The notes under the pieces were generated by a model. It worked only from the letters and a program-made list of their open reading frames with translations. It searched no databases and was not told where the DNA came from. A program made the position numbers and the translations under genes. A stretch of DNA of 64,000 nt from an uncultured Chloroflexota bacterium (GTDB taxonomy: Bacteria; Chloroflexota; Anaerolineae; UBA4142; SHND01), in contig CALMZO010000256.1 of NCBI GenBank assembly GCA_937870825.1, positions 1 through 64,000 of the forward strand. Reading direction: 5' to 3'. Positions 13,326-48,507 of the stretch are shown in pieces. Position 1 is the stretch's first letter, and the number at the start of each line of letters is the position of its first letter.

Positions 13326-14345
13326 TTAATACTGTAAATCGTGTGCTACCACATTCAATAACGGGAGTCCGGTGAGATAGCGACGCAGATTTTCCGCGAA
13401 CAAGGTTGCCGCGCGGTCATCATATTTCCCCGTCGCGCCCGACACATGCGGCGAAATGATTACATTGTCCATGTGCCACAATTGATGTCCGCGCGGCAGC
13501 GGTTCAATTGTGAACGCGTCGAGTCCCGCGCCTGCAATCCATCCGTCCTTTAACGCGGTCACCAACGCGCGGTCGTCAATCAATTCGCCGCGCGCGATAT
13601 TGATTAACAGCGCGTGGGGTTTCATTGCGCGCAGTTGTTCTTCGCCCAACATCGCGCGCGTTTCATTCGTCGCGGGCGCGGCGAGGACCACCATATCACA
13701 CTCACTCACAAGCGCGGTGATTTCATCCGGCGCGAACCATTTTTCAGGAATGCGCCCTTCGGGGTCGCCGACGCCGGGTTCATTGTAACGCCGACGCGGC
13801 GGCTGCGTGGTGCGGCGCATCGCGACGACGCGCATGTGAAAACCATATTTGGCAATGCGCGCGATTTCGCGTCCGATGCTGCCGTAACCGACAATCCCAA
13901 TCGTCTTGCCGCGCAATTCGAGTCCGCTCAAAATTTCCCAACGGTTTCGGGGCCATTCGCCGCGTTCTTGCAAGCGCACCATTTTTGGGATTTTGCGCGC
14001 GAGCGCGAGAATTAACGCGAACGCAAATTCACCAATCGGCACGGCATGAATGCCGCTCGTCGTCGTCACGGTAATGTCCGTGTTCCAAATCGGATGTTCG
14101 CGCAAATGGTCAACGCCTGCCGAATGCAATTGCACCCATTTCAATTTTGGCGCGCGCGCCAAATCGCGCGGCGGCGCAAAACAATACACAATTTCTTCGT
14201 TGCCGTCGAGAAAGGCGGAAATTTCTTCGCGGTCCTCACGGACCGATTGTTGGCGAATATCGAGGCGTGGTGAAACGGTGCGGAGCTCGTCCAGGAGCGC
14301 ATCGCGAAACCGCATCGTCATCAATACAGGAATCGTGTGACTCAT
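13326..14345 (-). CDS. D-isomer-specific 2-hydroxyacid dehydrogenase
   Basis: 339 residues. The NAD-binding fingerprint is GIVGYGSIGREIA. The catalytic triad positions of the family are visible as Arg in INIARGELID, Glu in FTIEPLP, and His in ISPHVSGAT. Such enzymes reduce 2-keto acids to D-2-hydroxy acids, and related members act on phosphoglycerate, glyoxylate or hydroxypyruvate. No ACT domain is present, so it is not a standard SerA. The ATG at 14345 starts MSHTIPVLM; an in-frame ATG seven codons upstream is possible. Confidence 0.9.
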   Translation of the reverse strand: MSHTIPVLMTMRFRDALLDELRTVSPRLDIRQQSVREDREEISAFLDGNEEIVYCFAPPRDLARAPKLKWVQLHSAGVDHLREHPIWNTDITVTTTSGIHAVPIGEFAFALILALARKIPKMVRLQERGEWPRNRWEILSGLELRGKTIGIVGYGSIGREIARIAKYGFHMRVVAMRRTTQPPRRRYNEPGVGDPEGRIPEKWFAPDEITALVSECDMVVLAAPATNETRAMLGEEQLRAMKPHALLINIARGELIDDRALVTALKDGWIAGAGLDAFTIEPLPRGHQLWHMDNVIISPHVSGATGKYDDRAATLFAENLRRYLTGLPLLNVVAHDLQY

Positions 14346-14477
14346 GCCGGGAAAACGTTTTTCCAAAATGGCTGTGCGAGTACGATTTTGAAATACGTTT
14401 GAACCGATCGAGGAATGGAAACGCGGCGCAATTATAACGGATGGTGAGGGAATAGAGAAACAGGAATTGGAGCGTCA

Positions 14478-14486
14478 TGCTATAAT
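14478..14486 (+). promoter_or_regulatory. Extended -10 promoter of the coaX-coaBC operon
   Basis: TGCTATAAT is a TGn-extended -10 box (core 14481-14486). I see no good -35. The predicted start at about 14493 gives a leader of only about 8 nt before the ATG at 14501. Confidence 0.55.
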
Positions 14487-14500
14487 CGTTTTTGATTTCT

Positions 14501-15313
14501 ATGCAAAAAGCAATTGATTCTCCGATTATTCGCTTTGGCTCCATTGTCGGCGTCGCGTTTCTCGCCACATGTATCGCCATCTTTTCATTTAATTTATTCG
14601 CGCCCCCGCGTCCCCTCGCGCAATTGCTGCCTACGCGCACCGCGACACGTCGTCCGCCGCCGACAATTACACCCGTCGCGTATCCGCCGACGCCGCAACT
14701 GTATTCAAAAGATGATTTGCGCGCGCAGAAAAATTTTCCCAAAGCGAGCGGCGTGAACCTCGGCTACGAGTACACGCAAGACGGATATCTGTTGACCCCA
14801 CCGCTGGACCCGGGCTTTGTGCGCGTGCTGGATATGTCGTTCACCAATCCCGATTATCGCAATCTTTCGCTCGATGCCGTCGCCGCACCGGCAGAAAATT
14901 CGTCGAATGTCGAGTATGGGCTCGTGTTTTGGCATGGTGAAAACGAACAAGGACGCGAATCGTTTCTCGCGTTCACCCTCAATACGAAAGGAAATTTTCG
15001 GCTGCTGGCATACGAACCTGTCGAGGACAAACCGGACGTGTACCAATTTAGAGAAGTGACGCCAGCTGCGTTTTCTGCAGCGATTCGCCAAGACAAATCG
15101 CCGCAAAAAATTCGCGTGGATGTTCACCCGCGTCGGCTGCTCGGGTACGTGAATGACCAACTCGTTCTCGACACAAATGCGGAAATCATCAACGACTGGC
15201 GTTTGCGCCGCGAGTGGGACGGCAAGGTTGGAATCATCGCGCTCACAATGGACGCGCCCGGCGCGCAAGCTGTCTTTTCACAATTCGATATTTACGCGGA
15301 CGTAAAAGAATGA
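14501..15313 (+). CDS. Membrane-anchored extracytoplasmic protein, possible lectin-like fold
   Basis: 270 residues. One N-terminal membrane anchor (about 12-35) is followed by a Pro/Thr-rich linker with RTATRRPPP and a soluble domain of about 180 residues. The linker suggests that the soluble part is outside the cell. The domain has a beta-rich pattern (VEYGLVFWHGENEQG, FLAFTLNTKGNFRLL, KIRVDVHPRRLLGYVNDQ core, GKVGIIALTM) typical of concanavalin-like laminarinase/DUF1080 folds, but no catalytic residues are clear. It is the first gene of an operon. Its stop overlaps the coaX start (ATGA). Confidence 0.65.
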   Translation: MQKAIDSPIIRFGSIVGVAFLATCIAIFSFNLFAPPRPLAQLLPTRTATRRPPPTITPVAYPPTPQLYSKDDLRAQKNFPKASGVNLGYEYTQDGYLLTPPLDPGFVRVLDMSFTNPDYRNLSLDAVAAPAENSSNVEYGLVFWHGENEQGRESFLAFTLNTKGNFRLLAYEPVEDKPDVYQFREVTPAAFSAAIRQDKSPQKIRVDVHPRRLLGYVNDQLVLDTNAEIINDWRLRREWDGKVGIIALTMDAPGAQAVFSQFDIYADVKE

Positions 15314-16092
15314 ACGCGACGCGCCTGCTTGCCATCAAAATCGGCAACACGAATCTCGCGTGGGGAATTTTTCAGGGCGACGCGCTGATTCACACATGGC
15401 GCGCCGAAACGCGCGCGGAAAAAACGGCCGACGAATACGCGGCATTGTTGCTTGAATTGCTTCAAGATGTTCAGGTCCCGCCGCGTTCCATCACCGCCGC
15501 CGCGCTCGTTTCCGTCGTCCCCGCGTTGAATGAAACCATACGCGACTTGTGCAACAAGTATCTTGACGTTGAACCCTTTGTCGCCGCGTCGGGCATGAAA
15601 AGCGGAATGCGCATTCGCTACGATGACCCGCGCACGTTTGGCGCAGACCGCCTCGTGTCGCTCGTCGCCGCAAAACAAAAATATGGTGCGCCGTTAATCC
15701 TGCTCGATTTGGGGACGGCAACCACCTTCAACGCGCTCGACGCACACGGCGATTTCGTCGGCGGCGCGATTGCGCCGGGACTCAACATGTCCGCCGACGC
15801 GCTGCATCAATTCACCGCGAAACTGCCGCGCATCGAAATCGCGCCGCCCCCTCACGCGCTCGGCACGAATACGCGCGACGCGCTGCGTTCGGGAATTTTT
15901 TTCGGCTATGTCGGGTTGGTGGACGGCATACTTGCGCGGATGAAACAAGAAATGAACGAGCCAAAGGCGCGCGTGATTGCGACAGGCGGCATGTCCCAAT
16001 TGCTCGCGCCGCATTGTGCGGCGATTGATGTTGTGGATGGCGACTTGGCGTTGGAAGGATTAAGAATTTTGTACGAGTTGAATCACGAATGA
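15310..16092 (+). CDS. coaX: Type III pantothenate kinase, first motif altered
   Basis: CoaX phosphorylates pantothenate, the first step of CoA synthesis, without feedback inhibition by CoA. At 260 residues it has the ASKHA features FGADRL (catalytic Asp region), ILLDLGTATTFNAL and GGAIAPGL. The N-terminal phosphate motif normally reads D-x-GNT, but here it is AIKIGNTN, so the conserved Asp is Lys (codon AAA at 15337-15339). The gene is overlapped by ATGA at both ends and sits in one operon with coaBC, which supports the CoA role. Whether it is still active is open. Confidence 0.88.
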   Translation: MNATRLLAIKIGNTNLAWGIFQGDALIHTWRAETRAEKTADEYAALLLELLQDVQVPPRSITAAALVSVVPALNETIRDLCNKYLDVEPFVAASGMKSGMRIRYDDPRTFGADRLVSLVAAKQKYGAPLILLDLGTATTFNALDAHGDFVGGAIAPGLNMSADALHQFTAKLPRIEIAPPPHALGTNTRDALRSGIFFGYVGLVDGILARMKQEMNEPKARVIATGGMSQLLAPHCAAIDVVDGDLALEGLRILYELNHE

Positions 16093-23066: not shown

Positions 23067-25118
23067 TTGACGGTCTCACATAACTCTATCGCTCCGCACA
23101 ACAGAACTCGTCCTGAGCAAAGTCGAAGGAACGGCGCAGCCCTTGCGCCGTTTTTGACGCGCCCGCGCGTGCGCCGCACAGTTCTGATGATTCTGATTTT
23201 GTGGCTCGCGCTCTTTTTGCGCGTGTGGCAGTTGGACACGCTTCCGCCGGGCTTGCATTATGACGAAGCGTTCAACGGCACAATGGCGCGCGAGGTTTTG
23301 CGCGGCATCAATCGCCCGATTTTTTTTACACCCAATTTTGGTGAAGAGCCGCTGCACATTTACACCGAAGCGATTTTGTTTGCCGGACTCGGCGAATCAC
23401 CGTGGACGATTCGGTTGGTGTCGGCGATTTTTGGCGTGATTTTTGTTGCGGCAATGTACGCGTGTGCACGCGCATTTTTTCCGCGCGCCGATTTGCTTGC
23501 GCTTGTCGCCGCGTTCATTGGCGCGACGCTGTACTGGGCAATCAATTTTTCGCGCATCGGCATCGAGACAAATGGTTTGCCGATGCTGTTGACGCTTTCA
23601 GCCGCCGCGCTTGCACACGCCTTTCGCAAAATGGAATGGCGGTGGTTCATCGGCGCGGGATTTCTAATCGGCGCGACGGTGTACACGTACCTCGCGTCGC
23701 GTTTGTGGCTCGTCGCGATTTTTCTCTGGTTTCTTTATCTTGTCGCGTTTCATCGCGAAACGATTCGCGCGCAGTTTTCAAAATGGGTTGTGATGGGATT
23801 TGTCGCGCTGTTGACGCTCGCGCCGCTCATTCTCTTTTTTGTATTGAATCCCGTTGCGTTCACCGGAAGAAGCGGAACGGTGTTTACGCCGGAGATTTTT
23901 CTAACGAACGTCGCGCGCACGGCAGGCATGTTTTTTTTCGCGGGCGATATTGACCCGCGCGACAATTTGCCGGGACGCCCCGGGCTCGATATCGTTCTCG
24001 CGATTTTTTTTGTGCTTGGACTTGGCATTTCGCTCGCGCGTCTTCGCCAACCGCTTTACGCGCTGCTCGCGATTTGGTTCGTCGTCATGTGCTTGCCCTC
24101 GGCGCTTACGGAATTTGCGCCGAACTTTCGCCGCGCGATTGGCGCGATGCCCGCGATGATTTTGTTTTGTGGGCTCGGGGTCGAATGGATTTGGAATCGC
24201 GTTTCGAATGTCGAATGTCGAATGTCGAATGTCGAATGTCGAATGTCGAATTTCGAATTCAGACGCGTGGGGCAATTTCTGTTGCTCGTCGCGCTTGTCA
24301 CCAGCGCGTTTTGGAGCGCACGCGCGTATTTTGTGGAATGGGCAAGTGGAACAGGATTGTTTTATTCGTTCGACGCGGGATTGCTTCAGGTCGCGCGCGC
24401 GTTGGCGGCACGTCCCGCGAATGAAAATTTGTATCTCACACCCGATTACGATGAACATTACACCGTAATTTGGGCGTTGGACGGGCGCAGAATTTCGTCG
24501 TTTGACGGCAGGCGCGCGCTTGTGCTGCCCGATTCAAGCCGCGCGGCGAGTTATGGTATTATCACGCGCGAGGACACCCTCACCGCGCAATCATTCGCAG
24601 AACATCGCGTACACGCAACGCCGCGCGAACAGTTTTTTGCGCTTGATGGCGTTCCGTACGCAACGGTGTACGATTTCGCGGCAGCGTCGTCGGACGCGTT
24701 GGGCGATGTGACACGCGCAGGCGACTTTGGTGCGTTGCACTCGCCACGTGTTGCGCCAATCAGCGATGAAACGATTCGGGTTGACTTGGAGTGGGCTGCC
24801 CTGAAACCCGCAGACAAAAATTACACCGTATCAGTGCAACTCGTCGGACCGGTAAATCCTGCCACAGGCTCACCGTTGTGGGCACAAGAGGACAAACAAC
24901 CTGCCGGCGGGACGTATCCGACAAGCGATTGGCGCGCAGGCGAACGGATTCTTGAAACTTTTACCTTAAAGATTCCGCGCGATGTGCCGCCGGGTGAGTA
25001 CAGCATTCAGGTGAATTTGTATTTTTTGGAAACTGGTGAACGTGTGCCTTTGTACCAGCAAAATGGCGCACGGCTTGAACACGACGCGTTGACGGTTGAA
25101 ACGTTTCATTTGAAATGA
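23067..25118 (+). CDS. GT39/ArnT-like membrane glycosyltransferase with repeat-invaded sequence
   Basis: Up to 683 residues. After the first membrane helix comes the GT-C signature LHYDEAFNG with its Asp-Glu pair, then about ten more membrane helices and a soluble C-terminal domain (about 490-683). Members transfer sugars from polyprenyl-phosphate carriers outside the membrane. The start is uncertain. The TTG at 23067 makes an N-terminus partly encoded by a dispersed palindrome (23104-23130); GTG 23169 or ATG 23187 would start directly before the first helix. A heptamer array at 24204-24259 adds a repetitive segment (VECRMSN units) in frame. The stop overlaps the next start (ATGA). Confidence 0.82.
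   Translation: MTVSHNSIAPHNRTRPEQSRRNGAALAPFLTRPRVRRTVLMILILWLALFLRVWQLDTLPPGLHYDEAFNGTMAREVLRGINRPIFFTPNFGEEPLHIYTEAILFAGLGESPWTIRLVSAIFGVIFVAAMYACARAFFPRADLLALVAAFIGATLYWAINFSRIGIETNGLPMLLTLSAAALAHAFRKMEWRWFIGAGFLIGATVYTYLASRLWLVAIFLWFLYLVAFHRETIRAQFSKWVVMGFVALLTLAPLILFFVLNPVAFTGRSGTVFTPEIFLTNVARTAGMFFFAGDIDPRDNLPGRPGLDIVLAIFFVLGLGISLARLRQPLYALLAIWFVVMCLPSALTEFAPNFRRAIGAMPAMILFCGLGVEWIWNRVSNVECRMSNVECRMSNFEFRRVGQFLLLVALVTSAFWSARAYFVEWASGTGLFYSFDAGLLQVARALAARPANENLYLTPDYDEHYTVIWALDGRRISSFDGRRALVLPDSSRAASYGIITREDTLTAQSFAEHRVHATPREQFFALDGVPYATVYDFAAASSDALGDVTRAGDFGALHSPRVAPISDETIRVDLEWAALKPADKNYTVSVQLVGPVNPATGSPLWAQEDKQPAGGTYPTSDWRAGERILETFTLKIPRDVPPGEYSIQVNLYFLETGERVPLYQQNGARLEHDALTVETFHLK
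23104..23130. repeat. Dispersed palindrome, CCTGAGC-AAAGTCGAAGG type
   Basis: The core reads TCCTGAGCAAAGTCGAAGGA. Related units lie inside the biotin carboxylase gene at 45568-45586 and 45844-45860. This one overlaps the possible N-terminus of the GT39-like gene. Confidence 0.7.
24204..24259 (+). repeat. Heptamer array inside the GT39-like gene
   Basis: Six TCGAATG units and two TCGAATT units, 56 bp. Because 7 is not a multiple of 3, gain or loss of one unit shifts the reading frame. At the present copy number the frame is open. Confidence 0.9.
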
Positions 25119-43031: not shown

Positions 43032-44642
43032 ATGTCCATTCTCCATTCGCATCTCAATACAAACAGTCCAGAGTTTCAAGCCAACGCGGAATTTCACCGC
43101 GCGCTCGCGCAAGAATTACGCGCGCGTCTCGACGCCGCGCGTCAAGGCGGGGGTGAAAAATATCGCGCGCGGCATGAGGCGCAAGGCAAAATTTTCGTGC
43201 GTGAACGCATTGACCGCTTGCTCGACGACGGTTCGCCGTTTTTGGAACTGTCGCCGCTTGCGGCTTTTGAAGTGTATGACGACGAAACGCCGAGCGCGGG
43301 AATTGTCACGGGCATCGGGCGCGTGAGCGGGCAGCAAGTGCTGATTGTGGCAAACGACGCGACAGTGAAAGGCGGTTCGTACTATCCACTCACGGTGAAA
43401 AAACATTTGCGCGCGCAAGAAATCGCGCAAGAAAATTTTTTGCCGTGCATTTATCTCGTGGACTCGGGCGGCGCGTTTTTGCCGTTGCAGGACCAAGTGT
43501 TTCCCGACGCCGACCATTTCGGCAAAATTTTTTACAATCAAGCGCGCATGAGCGCGTTGGGCATTCCGCAAATCGCGGTGGTCATGGGTTCGTGTACCGC
43601 AGGCGGCGCGTACGTTCCCGCAATGAGCGATGAAACCATTATTGTGCGCGGAACAGGGACCATTTTTCTCGGCGGTCCGCCATTGGTCAAAGCCGCGACG
43701 GGCGAAGTTGTCACCGCCGATGAATTGGGCGGCGCGGATGTGCATACGCGCAAAAGCGGCGTGGCTGACCATTTCGCAGAAGACGACGAACACGCGCTGG
43801 AACTCGCGCGCGGAATTGTGGAAACGCTAAATCGTCAAACGCAATTGTCCGTCACCGTCGAACCACCCGAAGAACCTCTTTACGACGCGCGCGAAATGTA
43901 TGGAATTTTGCCGCGCAGTTTTCGCGAAGCGTACGATGTGCGTGAAATGATTGCGCGCCTTGTGGATGGTTCGCGTTTTCGTGAATTCAAAGCGCGGTAC
44001 GGCACGACACTCGTGTGCGGTTTCGCGCGCATTCACGGTTATCCCGTCGGCATCATTGCAAACAACGGCGTACTGTTTTCCGAGAGTGCGCTCAAGGGAA
44101 CGCACTTTATCGAATTGTGTTCGCAGCGCGGCATTCCCCTTTTGTTTTTGCAAAACATCACGGGCTTTATGGTGGGCAAACAGTACGAGGCGGGCGGCAT
44201 CGCCAAAGACGGCGCGAAATTGGTGAACGCGGTGAGCAACGCGTCCGTTCCAAAACTCACCATTATCGTCGGCGGCTCGTTCGGCGCGGGCAATTACGGC
44301 ATGGCGGGACGCGCGTATCAACCGCGTTTTTTGTGGATGTACCCGAACGCGCGCATTTCCGTGATGGGCGGCGAACAAGCGGCGAACGTTTTGCTCACGA
44401 TTAAACAAGAACAACTCGAACGCGAAGGCAAAGCATTGTTGAACGCGCAAGAACAGCAAGAATTCATGCGTCCGATTTTGGAAAAATACGAACACGAAGG
44501 CAGCCCGTACTATTCCACCGCGCGCTTGTGGGATGACGGCGTGATTGACCCTGCGGATACGCGAAAGGTGTTGGCGCTCGCGTTGAGCGTTGTCTTGAAC
44601 GCGCCGCCGGTGAAAAATAATTTTGGCGTGTTTCGCATGTAG
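43032..44642 (+). CDS. mccB: Acyl-CoA carboxylase beta subunit (methylcrotonyl-CoA type)
   Basis: 536 residues, normal for MccB/AccD1. Both crotonase-like carboxyltransferase halves are present: [39 protein letters not shown], and in the second half [15 protein letters not shown] and [16 protein letters not shown]. It transfers carboxyl from biotin to 3-methylcrotonyl-CoA or a related acyl-CoA. With the next four genes it reproduces the order known in mycobacteria (accD1-accA1-maoC-citE), which supports leucine breakdown. There is a 182-bp gap to the biotin carboxylase gene. Confidence 0.92.
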
Positions 44643-44824: not shown

Positions 44825-46441
44825 ATGAAATTCAAAAAAATCCTCATTGCCAATCGCGGCGAAATTGCGGTACGCATCATGCGCGCGTGCCGCGAGATGA
44901 ATATCGCGACTGTCGCCGTCTATTCCGACGTAGACCGCGCGGCGTTGCACACGCGCGTCGCGGATGAAGCGATTTCCATCGGCGCGCCGCCGCCGCGCGA
45001 GTCGTATTTGAACATTGAAAAAATTATTGACGCGGCAAAAAAAACGAATGCCGACGCGATTCATCCCGGGTATGGCTTTCTCGCCGAAAATGCCGAGTTC
45101 GCGCAGGCGGTGAATGACGCGGGGATTGTGTTTATCGGACCGTCGCCGTTTTCAATTCGCGCGATGGGCGATAAAGCGGAGGCGCGCGCGCGCATGATGG
45201 CGAGCGGCGTGCCGGTGGTGCCGGGTTTTCAAGATGCGGACGACGATGAAGCGTTGGCGCGCGCAGCACGCGAACTTGGTTTTCCGGTTTTGATTAAAGC
45301 GGCGGCGGGCGGCGGAGGAAAAGCGATGCGCGTTGTGCATGAGGCGCTGGAATTTTCGGAATCGCTTGCCGGCGCGCGGCGGGAGGCGCTGAACGCGTTT
45401 GGCGACGCGCGCGTGATTTTGGAAAGGTATGTTGAGAACGCGCGGCACATCGAGTTTCAAATTCTCGCGGATAAATTTGGCAACACCATTCATTTGTTTG
45501 AACGCGAGTGTTCGATTCAGCGAAGGCATCAGAAAATTATTGAAGAGACGCCGTCCCCTTTGCTTGACCCTTCGACAAGCTCAGGGCTGCGCGAAAAAAT
45601 GGGCAACGCCGCAGTCGCCGCCGCGCGCGCGGTGAATTATGAAAACGCGGGAACGATTGAATTTATTGTTGACCCTGAAACGCGCGAATTTTATTTTTTG
45701 GAAATGAATACGCGCTTGCAGGTAGAGCATCCGATTACAGAAGTGACGACGGGACCGGATATTGTGAAATGGCAATTGCGAATTGCGAATGGGGAACAGT
45801 TAGTAATGAACAGTCATCAGTCATCAGCAACCGGTCTCCAGTCCCTCGACTTTGCTCGGGCCAAGTCTCCAGTCTCCACGAATCAACGCGGACATGCGCT
45901 CGAGTGCCGCATTTATGCCGAAGACCCGTCAAATCATTTTCTGCCGTCCACAGGACGCGTGTTGGCTTTGGAGTTGCCGAACATGCCGGGCGTGCGCGCG
46001 GATTCGGGGATTGCGACGGGCGACGAGGTGAGCGCGTTTTATGACCCGCTGCTGGTGAAATTGATTGCGCAAGCGGAAACCCGCGACGCGGCGATTGCGA
46101 AAATGCAAACCGCGCTGCGTGAATTTGTTTTGCTCGGTGTGACGACGAATGTGGAATTTTTGCAAGCCGTGTTATCGCATCCGACCTTTCGCGCGGGCGC
46201 GGCGACGACGCGGTTTATTGAAAGTGAAATGCAATACCTGGGACGGACGACGGAGGACGAACGACGGAGGACGAACGATGAACGACGGAGGACGGGATTA
46301 ATTGCGGCAGCATTGATGGAATTGTTGGAGAAGAAGAGTGCAAGTGTCGAGGTATCGAATGTCAACGACCCGTATAGTCCTTGGAGAAACACGAATCAGT
46401 TTCGCGGGGGAGAGGAATGCCAGCGGATAAAAAGCGGATAA
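44825..46441 (+). CDS. Acyl-CoA carboxylase biotin carboxylase chain, repeat-invaded and cut short by a stop
   Basis: 538 residues. The biotin carboxylase domain is complete: ILIANRGEIAVRI, IHPGYGFLAEN, AAGGGGKAMR, ERECSIQRRHQKIIEE and EMNTRLQVEHPITEVT. It carboxylates biotin with ATP and bicarbonate. Four repeat-derived insertions keep the frame: residues STSSGL (45568-45586), about 20 extra residues before RGHALECRI (45797-45884), TTEDERRRTNDERRRT (46241-46297), and the end QRIKSG (46422-46448). The stop TAA (46439-46441) lies inside the last repeat, and the frame then continues open into the biotinyl gene. In MccA/AccA1 these parts form one chain. Confidence 0.9.
   Translation: MKFKKILIANRGEIAVRIMRACREMNIATVAVYSDVDRAALHTRVADEAISIGAPPPRESYLNIEKIIDAAKKTNADAIHPGYGFLAENAEFAQAVNDAGIVFIGPSPFSIRAMGDKAEARARMMASGVPVVPGFQDADDDEALARAARELGFPVLIKAAAGGGGKAMRVVHEALEFSESLAGARREALNAFGDARVILERYVENARHIEFQILADKFGNTIHLFERECSIQRRHQKIIEETPSPLLDPSTSSGLREKMGNAAVAAARAVNYENAGTIEFIVDPETREFYFLEMNTRLQVEHPITEVTTGPDIVKWQLRIANGEQLVMNSHQSSATGLQSLDFARAKSPVSTNQRGHALECRIYAEDPSNHFLPSTGRVLALELPNMPGVRADSGIATGDEVSAFYDPLLVKLIAQAETRDAAIAKMQTALREFVLLGVTTNVEFLQAVLSHPTFRAGAATTRFIESEMQYLGRTTEDERRRTNDERRRTGLIAAALMELLEKKSASVEVSNVNDPYSPWRNTNQFRGGEECQRIKSG
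45568..45586. repeat. Palindromic element inside the biotin carboxylase gene
   Basis: CCCTTCGACAAGCTCAGGG, in frame, adds about six residues (STSSGL) to a loop after LLDP, where relatives read straight into the REKMG helix. Confidence 0.8.
45797..45884. repeat. Heptamer array plus palindrome inside the biotin carboxylase gene
   Basis: CAGTCAT, CAGTCAT, CAGCAAC and CGGTCTC-type heptamers, interrupted by CCTCGACTTTGCTCGGG (45844-45860), and continued by AGTCTC-CAGTCTC. It looks like a palindrome that landed inside a tandem array. Confidence 0.8.
46241..46297. repeat. GACGGAGGACGAAC array inside the biotin carboxylase gene
   Basis: Nearly three copies of a 14-16 bp unit built from GACGGAG and GACGAAC heptamers, in frame. 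It encodes an Asp/Glu/Arg-rich insert. Confidence 0.85.
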
Positions 46442-46448
46442 GCGGATA
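46422..46448. repeat. AGCGGATA octamers that contain the splitting stop codon
   Basis: Three AGCGGATA units (46422-46429, 46433-46440, 46441-46448). The TAA formed by units two and three ends the biotin carboxylase frame. Confidence 0.85.
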
Positions 46449-46498
46449 GACAACACTTGGCCGTTTTCCAAATCCGTTGTCCCGCGCCGACAACAATC

Positions 46499-47005
46499 AT
46501 GAAACTCGTTTATAAACACAACGCGCAAACTAACACGCTCGACATTGAACGCGCGGGAGATGATTTTGAAATCGAAATTAACGGCGAACGCGCGCAGGTC
46601 CAAGTAATTTCGTTCGTGCCGCCGCGCGTTACATTTTTGTACAATGGCAAGATAGTTGATGCGCGCGTTGCGGACGAGGGAAAAAAACGTTGGGCGCATG
46701 TGGACGGCGCGACGTTCGTACTCGAACGCGTGGACGCGCGAACACCGCGCGGACATTCTCACGGCGCGCGTGAGGGAACGGGTTCGGGCATTGTCGTCGC
46801 GCCGATGCCGGGACAGGTGCGCGGTGTCTTGGTGAGCGAAGGCGCGGCAGTGGCAGAAGGTCAGCCGCTCGTAATTTTGGAAGCGATGAAGATGGAGGTA
46901 AAGGTGAGCGCGCCGCATGATGGAGTCGTCGCAAGACTGTTTGTAACGCAAGGGCAGAGTGTGGAGAGAGAACAGGTATTGGGAGAGATTCAGAGTAGTC
47001 AGTAG
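46499..47005 (+). CDS. Biotinyl-domain protein of the acyl-CoA carboxylase (BT-like plus BCCP)
   Basis: 168 residues. The first 75 residues are beta-rich (DDFEIEINGERAQVQVI) like the BT/linker region of MCC alpha chains. The last 75 form a lipoyl/biotinyl domain with APMPGQVRGVLV and the biotin-accepting lysine in EAMKMEV. It carries the carboxyl group between the two catalytic subunits. It is in the same reading frame as the biotin carboxylase gene, with only one stop between them. The final residues (QSSQ) come from a tandem repeat array. Confidence 0.9.
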   Translation: MKLVYKHNAQTNTLDIERAGDDFEIEINGERAQVQVISFVPPRVTFLYNGKIVDARVADEGKKRWAHVDGATFVLERVDARTPRGHSHGAREGTGSGIVVAPMPGQVRGVLVSEGAAVAEGQPLVILEAMKMEVKVSAPHDGVVARLFVTQGQSVEREQVLGEIQSSQ

Positions 47006-47052
47006 TCAGTAATCAGTAATCAGCAATCAGACTGAACACTGATTACTGATTG
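46991..47052. repeat. AGTAATC heptamer array at the biotinyl/MaoC junction
   Basis: AGTAGTC, AGTAGTC, AGTAATC, AGTAATC, AGCAATC, then an 8-nt centre and the inverse CTGATTACTGATTGC. It spans the stop codon and ends about 20 bp before the next start. Confidence 0.85.
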
Positions 47053-47073
47053 CGGTTCACTGTCCACCGGACA

Positions 47074-47538
47074 ATGACACACGGAAAATATTTTCAAGAG
47101 TTGAATGTCGGCGACAAATTTTTGCATGACCAACGCCGCACGATTACGGAAATGGACAATGTGTTGTTTTGCGCGTTGACGATGAATGACCAGCCGCTGC
47201 ACATTGACGCCGAGTTTGCAAAAGGCACACAATTCGGGCAGCGCGTCGTCAACGGAATTTTTGTGCTGGGGCTCGTCGTCGGACTTTCGGTCAGTGGTTT
47301 GAGTGAGGGGACGATTGTGGCGAATTTGAGTTTTGAAAATGTGTTGCAACCGAATCCGGTTTTCCACGGCGATACGATTTCGTGCGAGACGGAAATTTTG
47401 GAGAAACGCGAATCGAAAACAAAAAGTGACAGGGGCGTTGTGAAATTGAAACATCTTGGACGCAAGCAAGATGGAACAATTGTGTGTGAGTGTACGCGGA
47501 TGGTGATGTTTCGGAGACGAATGACGAATGACGAATGA
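47074..47538 (+). CDS. MaoC-like hot-dog hydratase
   Basis: 154 residues. The hydratase region reads NDQPLHIDAEFAKGTQFGQRV with the Asp/His pair, then NGIFVLGLVVGL and NPVFHGDTISCETEIL, all typical of the MaoC family. In M. tuberculosis the neighbouring maoC (Rv2499c) lies between the carboxylase and citE. By analogy this enzyme could hydrate 3-methylglutaconyl-CoA in leucine breakdown. The last residues (RMTNDE) are encoded by ATGACGA repeats that also form the next start codon. I chose ATG 47074 over 47050, which lies near the array. Confidence 0.85.
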   Translation: MTHGKYFQELNVGDKFLHDQRRTITEMDNVLFCALTMNDQPLHIDAEFAKGTQFGQRVVNGIFVLGLVVGLSVSGLSEGTIVANLSFENVLQPNPVFHGDTISCETEILEKRESKTKSDRGVVKLKHLGRKQDGTIVCECTRMVMFRRRMTNDE

Positions 47539-47539
47539 C
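47518..47539. repeat. ATGACGA array at the MaoC/CitE overlap
   Basis: Three units of CGAATGA. They encode the end of MaoC and, in another frame, the MTND start of the CitE-like protein. Confidence 0.75.
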
Positions 47540-48418
47540 AGACAACAAATGCGCGCGCGGCGATGTGTTTTGTACGTGCCCGGCAGCGACACGCGCAAAA
47601 TGGAAAAGGCAGTGACGCTCGGCGCGGATTGCGTGTGTTTTGATTTGGAAGACGGGGTTGCGTCGAGTCAAAAAGAAAACGCGCGTCCGCTGGTGGCGAA
47701 CGCGCTGCGCGATTTGAATTTTGGCGCGAGTGAAAGATTGGCGCGCATCAATGCGATTGGTTCGGGCATGGCGGAAGAGGATTTGGAGTTTGTCGTGCCT
47801 GCGCGTCCCGATGCCATTGTGATTCCCAAAGTGGGTGACGCGGAACAGGTGAAATGGGTGAGTGACAAGATTGGAGAACTGGAGACGAGAGACTCGATAG
47901 AGCTTGGGACCATCGGGTTGATTGGAATGATTGAGAGTGCGCGCGGGCTGCTGAATTTGCGCGATATTGTTTCCGCCGACGCGCGGTTGCAGGCATTGAT
48001 TTTTGGGGCGGAAGATTACGCGGCGGATGTGGGCGCGACGCGCACGCGCGAGGGCATGGAGGTCTTGTACGCGCGCAGCGCGATTGTTGCCGCGTGCGCG
48101 GCGTTCGGCTTGCAGGCGATTGATTTGTTGTATTTGGATTTTCGTGACGCCGAAGGGTTGCGCGCAGAAGCAACACGCGGCGCGCAACTCGGTTACGCGG
48201 GGATGCAGGTGATTCATCCGAATCAGGTGCCAATCGTGCAAGCGGTGTTTTCGCCGAGCGCCGATGCAATTGCGAACGCGCAACGTATTGTGGATGCGGC
48301 GCGCGAAAAATTACGAGAAGGGCGCGGCGCGTTCGCCTTGGACAACAAGATGGTGGACATGCCGGTCATCAAAGCGGCGGAGAGGGTGTTGGCGCGGGCG
48401 GGGATAAAGAGAGATTAG
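47528..48418 (+). CDS. CitE/HpcH-family acyl-CoA lyase
   Basis: 296 residues. Family motifs are VLYVPGSDTRKMEKA, CVCFDLEDGV (Mg-binding), GMIESARGLLN, IFGAEDYAADVGA, and the C-terminal DNKMVDMPVIKAAERVL typical of the CitE-like subfamily. The mycobacterial counterpart Rv2498c is described as a (3R)-specific beta-hydroxyacyl-CoA lyase acting on HMG-CoA. The same role fits this cluster. An alternative start at 47549 (MRARRCVLY) avoids the repeat-encoded residues and may be the real one. The end runs into a tandem array. Confidence 0.88.
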   Translation: MTNDRQQMRARRCVLYVPGSDTRKMEKAVTLGADCVCFDLEDGVASSQKENARPLVANALRDLNFGASERLARINAIGSGMAEEDLEFVVPARPDAIVIPKVGDAEQVKWVSDKIGELETRDSIELGTIGLIGMIESARGLLNLRDIVSADARLQALIFGAEDYAADVGATRTREGMEVLYARSAIVAACAAFGLQAIDLLYLDFRDAEGLRAEATRGAQLGYAGMQVIHPNQVPIVQAVFSPSADAIANAQRIVDAAREKLREGRGAFALDNKMVDMPVIKAAERVLARAGIKRD

Positions 48419-48507
48419 AGATTGGAGATTGAGGGATGGAGTGATGGAGTGATGGAGTGATGGAGTGATGGAGTGAGAGAGTGAACGGGTGACAAGGTGA
48501 CAGGGTG
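48410..48507. repeat. Octamer array at the CitE/FAD-oxidoreductase junction
   Basis: GATTAGAGATTGGAGATTG, then five GATGGAGT octamers, then degenerate GAGTGA/GGTGACA units up to the next ATG. Similar low-complexity sequence continues into the first 20 codons of the next gene. Confidence 0.9.

Follow-up and report, generated by a model that had tools for sequence, protein, structure and literature searches.

The Rickettsia palindromic elements (RPEs), as excerpted in later reports, are elements of ~ 150 bp that form defined families and lie in frame within genes (Ogata et al. 2000/2002, via PMC10969869 and PMC6649704). The REPs of the GTAG and CGTC superfamilies are found mostly near the 3' ends of genes, where their termini supply stop codons, while intragenic REPs occur in core genes, those of DNA repair included, and two related species share approximately the same site in one instance (PMC3733652). 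A third type is known from the Beggiatoaceae, in which direct repeats of the heptamer TAACTGA are abundant, mainly intergenic and present in scattered genomes (PMC4679880).

The locus analysed here has features in common with each of these. As with the RPEs, short repeats, some of them palindromic, lie in frame in unrelated housekeeping genes and are apparently tolerated by the protein, and in some inserts both arms are coded (TNDERRTT...RPSSSV); the in-frame inserts are found in core protein genes, and homologs free of inserts exist. The RPEs, which were compared by description, are nevertheless defined families of ~ 150 bp, whereas the repeats described here are arrays of 7-8 nt units that belong to several interchangeable families in a genus of the Anaerolineae. 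The likeness to the REPs consists of array-borne stop codons and of copies both near 3' ends and inside core genes, although REPs are single elements of 20-40 bp and the present repeats are heptamer or octamer arrays (with an insert of CCTTCGACAAGCTCAGG that is, again by description, closer to a REP). In the Beggiatoaceae a single heptamer prevails and lies mostly ahead of start codons (PMC4679880), while here several families occur, their abundance peaks just after stop codons and many copies lie inside genes. By analogy, the combination (i.e. heptamer arrays inside genes, in several families, in Anaerolineae) could be regarded as a heptamer-array variant of the RPE/intragenic-REP type, which would extend coding repeats from Rickettsia and the REP-rich Proteobacteria to the Anaerolineae. 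A full-text search of the available papers returned neither the CCTTCGACAAGCTCAGG string nor an account of such heptamers in Chloroflexi, which is no proof that none exists.

The window, i.e. the whole stretch of 64,000 nt that was analysed, lies on contig C256 of a draft genome that comprises 7.2 Mb and 446 contigs (completeness 95%, contamination 5%), and the relatives of which are Anaerolineae. On its forward strand, a gene for a carboxyltransferase (beta) subunit of the 3-methylcrotonyl-CoA carboxylase (MCC) type (43032-44642; Pfam Carboxyl_trans, E 2e-157) is followed by a biotin carboxylase (BC) gene with a short C-terminal tail (44825-46441, 538 aa; Pfam Biotin_carb_N/CPSase_L_D2/Biotin_carb_C), a gene for a BT-like plus biotinyl (BCCP) subunit (46499-47005; Pfam Biotin_lipoyl, E 1e-17), a MaoC-like hydratase gene (47074-47538; Pfam MaoC_dehydratas) and a CitE/HpcH-like lyase gene (47528-48418; Pfam HpcH_HpaI). 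The best solved relative of the carboxyltransferase is MCC beta (3u9r, E 2e-246, full length), compared to an E of only about 1e-75 to 1e-82 for classical PCC beta chains, and that of BC is human MCC alpha (8j4z). Because of these relatives the operon is read as a putative MCC of leucine or isovalerate breakdown, a substrate that we infer. It resembles MCC in that a BC domain and a biotinyl domain are both present (the second gene combining a BT-like region with BCCP) beside a carboxyltransferase of the MCC beta type, and it differs in that BC and BCCP are not placed on one alpha chain. Instead, two adjacent ORFs are found, as in nearly all Chloroflexota homologs read, and BC is, as predicted from the genes, a separate subunit in this lineage.

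At the end of the BC gene, the octamer array at 46422-46448 (AGCGGATAAAAAGCGGATAAGCGGATA, with AGCGGATA as its unit) forms the TAA stop codon at 46439-46441, as the sequence-only reading had noted. It had also been noted correctly that the same frame stays open past this single stop, through 46499 into the biotinyl protein: no further stop occurs in the BC frame from 46442 up to 47002, across the BCCP ORF, with BCCP in the frame of BC and a spacer of 57 nt between the TAA and the BCCP ATG. From this it had been proposed that the octamer repeat, by introducing the TAA, divided a fused alpha chain of the MccA/AccA1 type, which, if true, would mean that repeat DNA had remade a central enzyme. This was found to be untrue. 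One frame open on both sides of a single stop does agree with such a history, as do the fused chains known in other phyla and one fused Chloroflexota locus (L105, 53% identity), but BC and BCCP are two ORFs in all five genus-level copies that were compared (L006 in genome G005, L007/L035 in G003, L008 in G002, L009 in G004, and L036; 65-80% identity to the window over the aligned BC), of which L036 was taken from another collection and is assigned to the vicinity of the genus on identity only. The two-gene form is also found in each of 23 further Chloroflexota BC loci that have a BCCP downstream, and in L006, L007, L008 and L036 the separate BCCP gene is 70-80% identical. In L009, which among the genus copies that have a BC/BCCP pair is the most diverged, the junction reads ...NFRV-TGA-ccatcccgc-ATG, which is a two-gene split with a 9-nt spacer and without any repeat, an arrangement that the sequence-only reading had itself named as a sign of ancestry. 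Moreover, the frame of BCCP relative to BC is 2, 1, 0, 0 and 2 in L006, L007, L008, L009 and L036, respectively. Since this relation differs among congeners, including repeat-bearing ones, the common frame in the window is a matter of chance (roughly a one-in-three event) and no scar of a fusion, and a fused chain broken by the repeat is highly improbable. BC and BCCP were already separate before the repeats came, so that the repeats were added to a gene pair that was already old and split no gene; going by these gene arrangements, the split is ancestral in the lineage.

The repeat at this junction is, in an ancestral spacer between two cistrons, a putative hairpin element that supplies the stop codon of BC. 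It is an octamer inverted repeat (about 46420-46482) with a left arm of (AGCGGATA)n and a decayed right arm (ATCCGTTG), and the BC stop lies inside it as TAG, TAG, TAA and TAA in L006, L007, L036 and the window, respectively. Its predicted hairpin is strong in L006 (-42.8 kcal/mol, z -6.9), L007 (-40.5 kcal/mol, z -8.3) and L036 (-20.7 kcal/mol, z -3.1); the copy in the window is decayed and its hairpin is no stronger than those of shuffles (z -1.2), that in L008 is short (z -0.8), and L009 is without the element. The idea that unit loss or gain at this array would restore or break a fusion found no support. Slippage is possible in principle for arrays with units of 7-8 nt, and two or three units are present here, but in silico the loss of one octamer or the gain of one to four leads to the same stop (codon 539), the loss of two leads to a stop in another frame, and the BC and BCCP frames fuse only after a loss of ~ 24 nt, which is about the whole array. 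With the downstream gene also out of frame in L006, L007 and L036, it is extremely improbable that the array acts as a phase-variation switch that alternates between fused and split products. Low-level read-through of the TAA, by which a minor fused chain would be made beside the separate subunits, would have to pass only the 57 open nt up to the BCCP ATG; given that neither the frame nor the type of stop is conserved among relatives, however, this too seems very unlikely. Finally, the many contigs and the contamination of the draft genome could raise the suspicion that errors of assembly or sequencing created the BC stop or the inserts, were it not that a related element recurs at this junction in independent genomes, as do inserts in the same loops, and that the net insert lengths remain in frame, which makes such errors hardly credible as an explanation.

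Elsewhere, relatives of the junction element are found on contig C299 of this genome (two copies) and in genome G001. As a large exact family, the element had to be dropped, the pattern GCCARCGGAT...ATCCGYTGGC matching two places each in G000 (this genome) and G001 only.

Four in-frame inserts had been reported for BC, of which three indeed lie inside the conserved BC, while the fourth, one arm of the junction element, covers the 3' end of the gene and the BC-BCCP spacer. Insert 1 (45569-45585) is a CCTTCGACAAGCTCAGG repeat that adds a net 12 nt in frame (PSTSSG) to the loop preceding helix 249-269. The site is empty in all five genus-level copies, where the segment measures 51 nt compared to 63 nt in the window, and the loop has exactly 7 residues in 85 of the 87 BC loci read; only this genome's own two BC genes depart from that number, and both have a CCTTCG..GCTCAGGG-type insert at this site. 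CCTTCGACAAGCTCAGG has five exact copies in the genome. The paralogous BC gene (L002, on contig C269) has its own insert, CCTTCGGCACGCTCAGGG, exactly at this loop. Insert 2 (45797-45887), which falls in a low-confidence loop (residues about 325-355), is a composite of CAGTCAT and AGTCTCC heptamers and of a CCTCGACTTTGCTCGGGCCAAG-type repeat of 24 nt that is nested among them at about 45843-45865 and is absent from L006 and L007. Of the relatives, L006 and L007 have an insert at site 2 whereas L008, L009 and L036 have none, with segments of 126, 123, 102, 72, 69 and 63 nt in the window, L006, L007, L008, L009 and L036, respectively. Insert 3 (46242-46298, detected with TRF), in the linker that follows the C-terminal domain of BC, is an array of GACGGAG/GACGAAC heptamers. 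At this site L006, L007 and L036 have GGAGATT/GGAGACT heptamers (GDWRLET) and L009 has none, the segments measuring 180, 198, 156, 159, 159 and 156 nt in the same order. The inserts thus turn over within the genus, and all length differences at sites 1-3 among the compared copies are multiples of three.

An AlphaFold model of BC (27 sequences, mean pLDDT 81) has the biotin carboxylase fold. Its pLDDT is below 50 at residues 329-352, 474-476, 478-482, 504-516 and 522-538, which covers inserts 2-4, so that in the model these appear to lie in loops or tails of low confidence, while for insert 1, placed where a loop passes into a helix, the pLDDT is moderate (about 76-82). The alignment to solved structures has gaps as well, and the earlier view that the inserts occupy loops or linkers is supported. 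What had been observed in the sequence was mostly right and its reading as gene splitting was wrong, while the loop insertion is right and broader than was first noted.

Not only the stop of BC but also those of the BCCP, MaoC and CitE genes are all within arrays. The TAG of BCCP lies in a CAGTAGT/CAGTAAT array, and an array-borne BCCP stop is shared by the window with L006 and L036 only. At the 3' end of BCCP and in the spacer to the MaoC gene, a CAGTAAT heptamer palindrome (46994-47062, forward strand, TRF) has a predicted hairpin of -28.1 kcal/mol (z -5.35), which may play an intercistronic role; the CAGTAAT array after BCCP is present in L006 and L036 and absent from L007, L008 and L009. 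The TGA of the MaoC gene is inside a GACGAAT array (47516-47539) and the TAG of the CitE gene inside an AGAGATT/GGAGATT array (48410-48431). Genome-wide, strict arrays overlap the stop codon in only 3 of 231 genes, and the arrays peak 20-40 nt past stops; array-borne stops are therefore frequent in this operon, but they are no general rule.

That the repeats are real follows from their numbers, which are far above chance in both the window and a larger sample. In the window, 13 exact period-7 arrays of at least 15 nt were found versus 1.5 expected (7 of them within 44825-47538), as well as 4 exact period-8 arrays of at least 15 nt versus 0.2 expected (1 within 44825-47538), and a sample of 294 kb gave 41 period-7 arrays versus 4. 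Genome-wide repeat counts come from pattern searches and selected sequence stretches; GACGAACGACGAACGAC, for instance, matches 65 times in this genome and 16 times in G005, with few or no matches in the other genomes. Clustered GACGAAC arrays were found in long ORFs, with at least 100 open codons on both sides, in 22 of 43 cases, which is like random positions (288 of 600), compared to 3 of 23 for GACGAAT, a heptamer with one base changed and with a stop in the sense orientation (Fisher p 0.003). As the ORFs were defined by simple open-frame rules, and as taking the best of six frames favours arrays that are open on both strands, this contrast (51% vs 13%) is partly built in and indicative only.

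Of 20 scanned ORFs with GACGAAC arrays, 14 have Pfam domains, while the 6 without a Pfam match may in some cases be spurious. Among the array-bearing ORFs are a Mur ligase, a GlmS-like protein, MutS, TopA, ThyX, a histidine kinase and a DUF1385 protein, and besides the 14 an aconitase-like protein (L125) also carries a GACGAAC array. In several ORFs (e.g. L160, L162, L163 and L183) the array sits between two Pfam domains. For MutS, TopA and the aconitase-like protein, the three that were aligned, the same loop holds other repeat families or is short in congeners.

Taken together, it is very probable that this is an MCC operon with ancestrally separate BC and BCCP, that the repeats spread and turn over in the genus, and that families with and without stops persist in different places. 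Several families of 7-8 nt arrays, along with short palindromes, would spread through slippage or through transposase-driven, REP-like mobility. Each of the six genus genomes has Y1 transposase (Y1_Tnp) genes, for which a part in the spread would be conceivable. Stop-containing families or orientations (AGCGGATA in sense, CAGTAAT, and GACGAAT in sense) would persist mainly in spacers and at the 3' ends of genes, where they could supply the stop codon, whereas those open in all frames (GACGAAC, GGAGACT, GACGGAG) would be tolerated within genes if placed in a loop, linker or tail and if their net length is a multiple of three, presumably as the outcome of selection. BC would exemplify both outcomes, with three in-frame loop inserts and a junction element that replaced its end. 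The likely effect would be limited to a few extra disordered residues and an intercistronic hairpin, which might alter the relative translation of the two cistrons, and neither a fused product nor a switch would be required.

A broader reading, which we put forward tentatively and think somewhat more likely to fail than to hold, is that short heptamer-array palindromes are, in this genus, an ongoing source of in-frame insertions, with the same tolerant loops of core enzymes (BC, TopA, MutS and the aconitase-like protein) being refilled or rewritten by differing families in each species and the stop content of the heptamer deciding its entry into genes. Comparable natural in-frame loop insertions in core enzymes of close species could be used as a natural experiment on insertion tolerance. 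For annotation, it should be kept in mind that in genomes of this kind a repeat can supply the stop codon and the C-terminus of a gene product.

Whether the inserts form hairpins was considered at the DNA level, and the notion that all inserts are palindromes was dropped. Folding of the intragenic inserts gave z values of -1.4 to +1.5 and did not reveal hairpins in general, and the BC inserts and the MutS insert fold no better than shuffles. Inverted arms are clear in L125, L163, L165 and L177, while none were found in L172 and L180. In L125 the aconitase-like gene (13998-15332, minus strand) contains, besides another array of octamers, a palindrome that is translated as TNDERRTT...SIRPSSSVLR. 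The MutS gene (L171, 1066-3654, minus strand) has its in-frame GACGAAC array in domain III, which is of interest for repeat stability, and its congeners have other inserts or short loops at this site. A TopA loop in G001 (L202) contains GERESGRAGERESGRASLHHSITLSLYHSFTPSQ, in which two inverted copies from a different repeat family are probably paired. Within the window itself, a TCGAATG heptamer array of approximately eight copies (24202-24259) codes for SNVECRM repeats in an ORF (23067-25118) with a PMT_2 mannosyltransferase domain.
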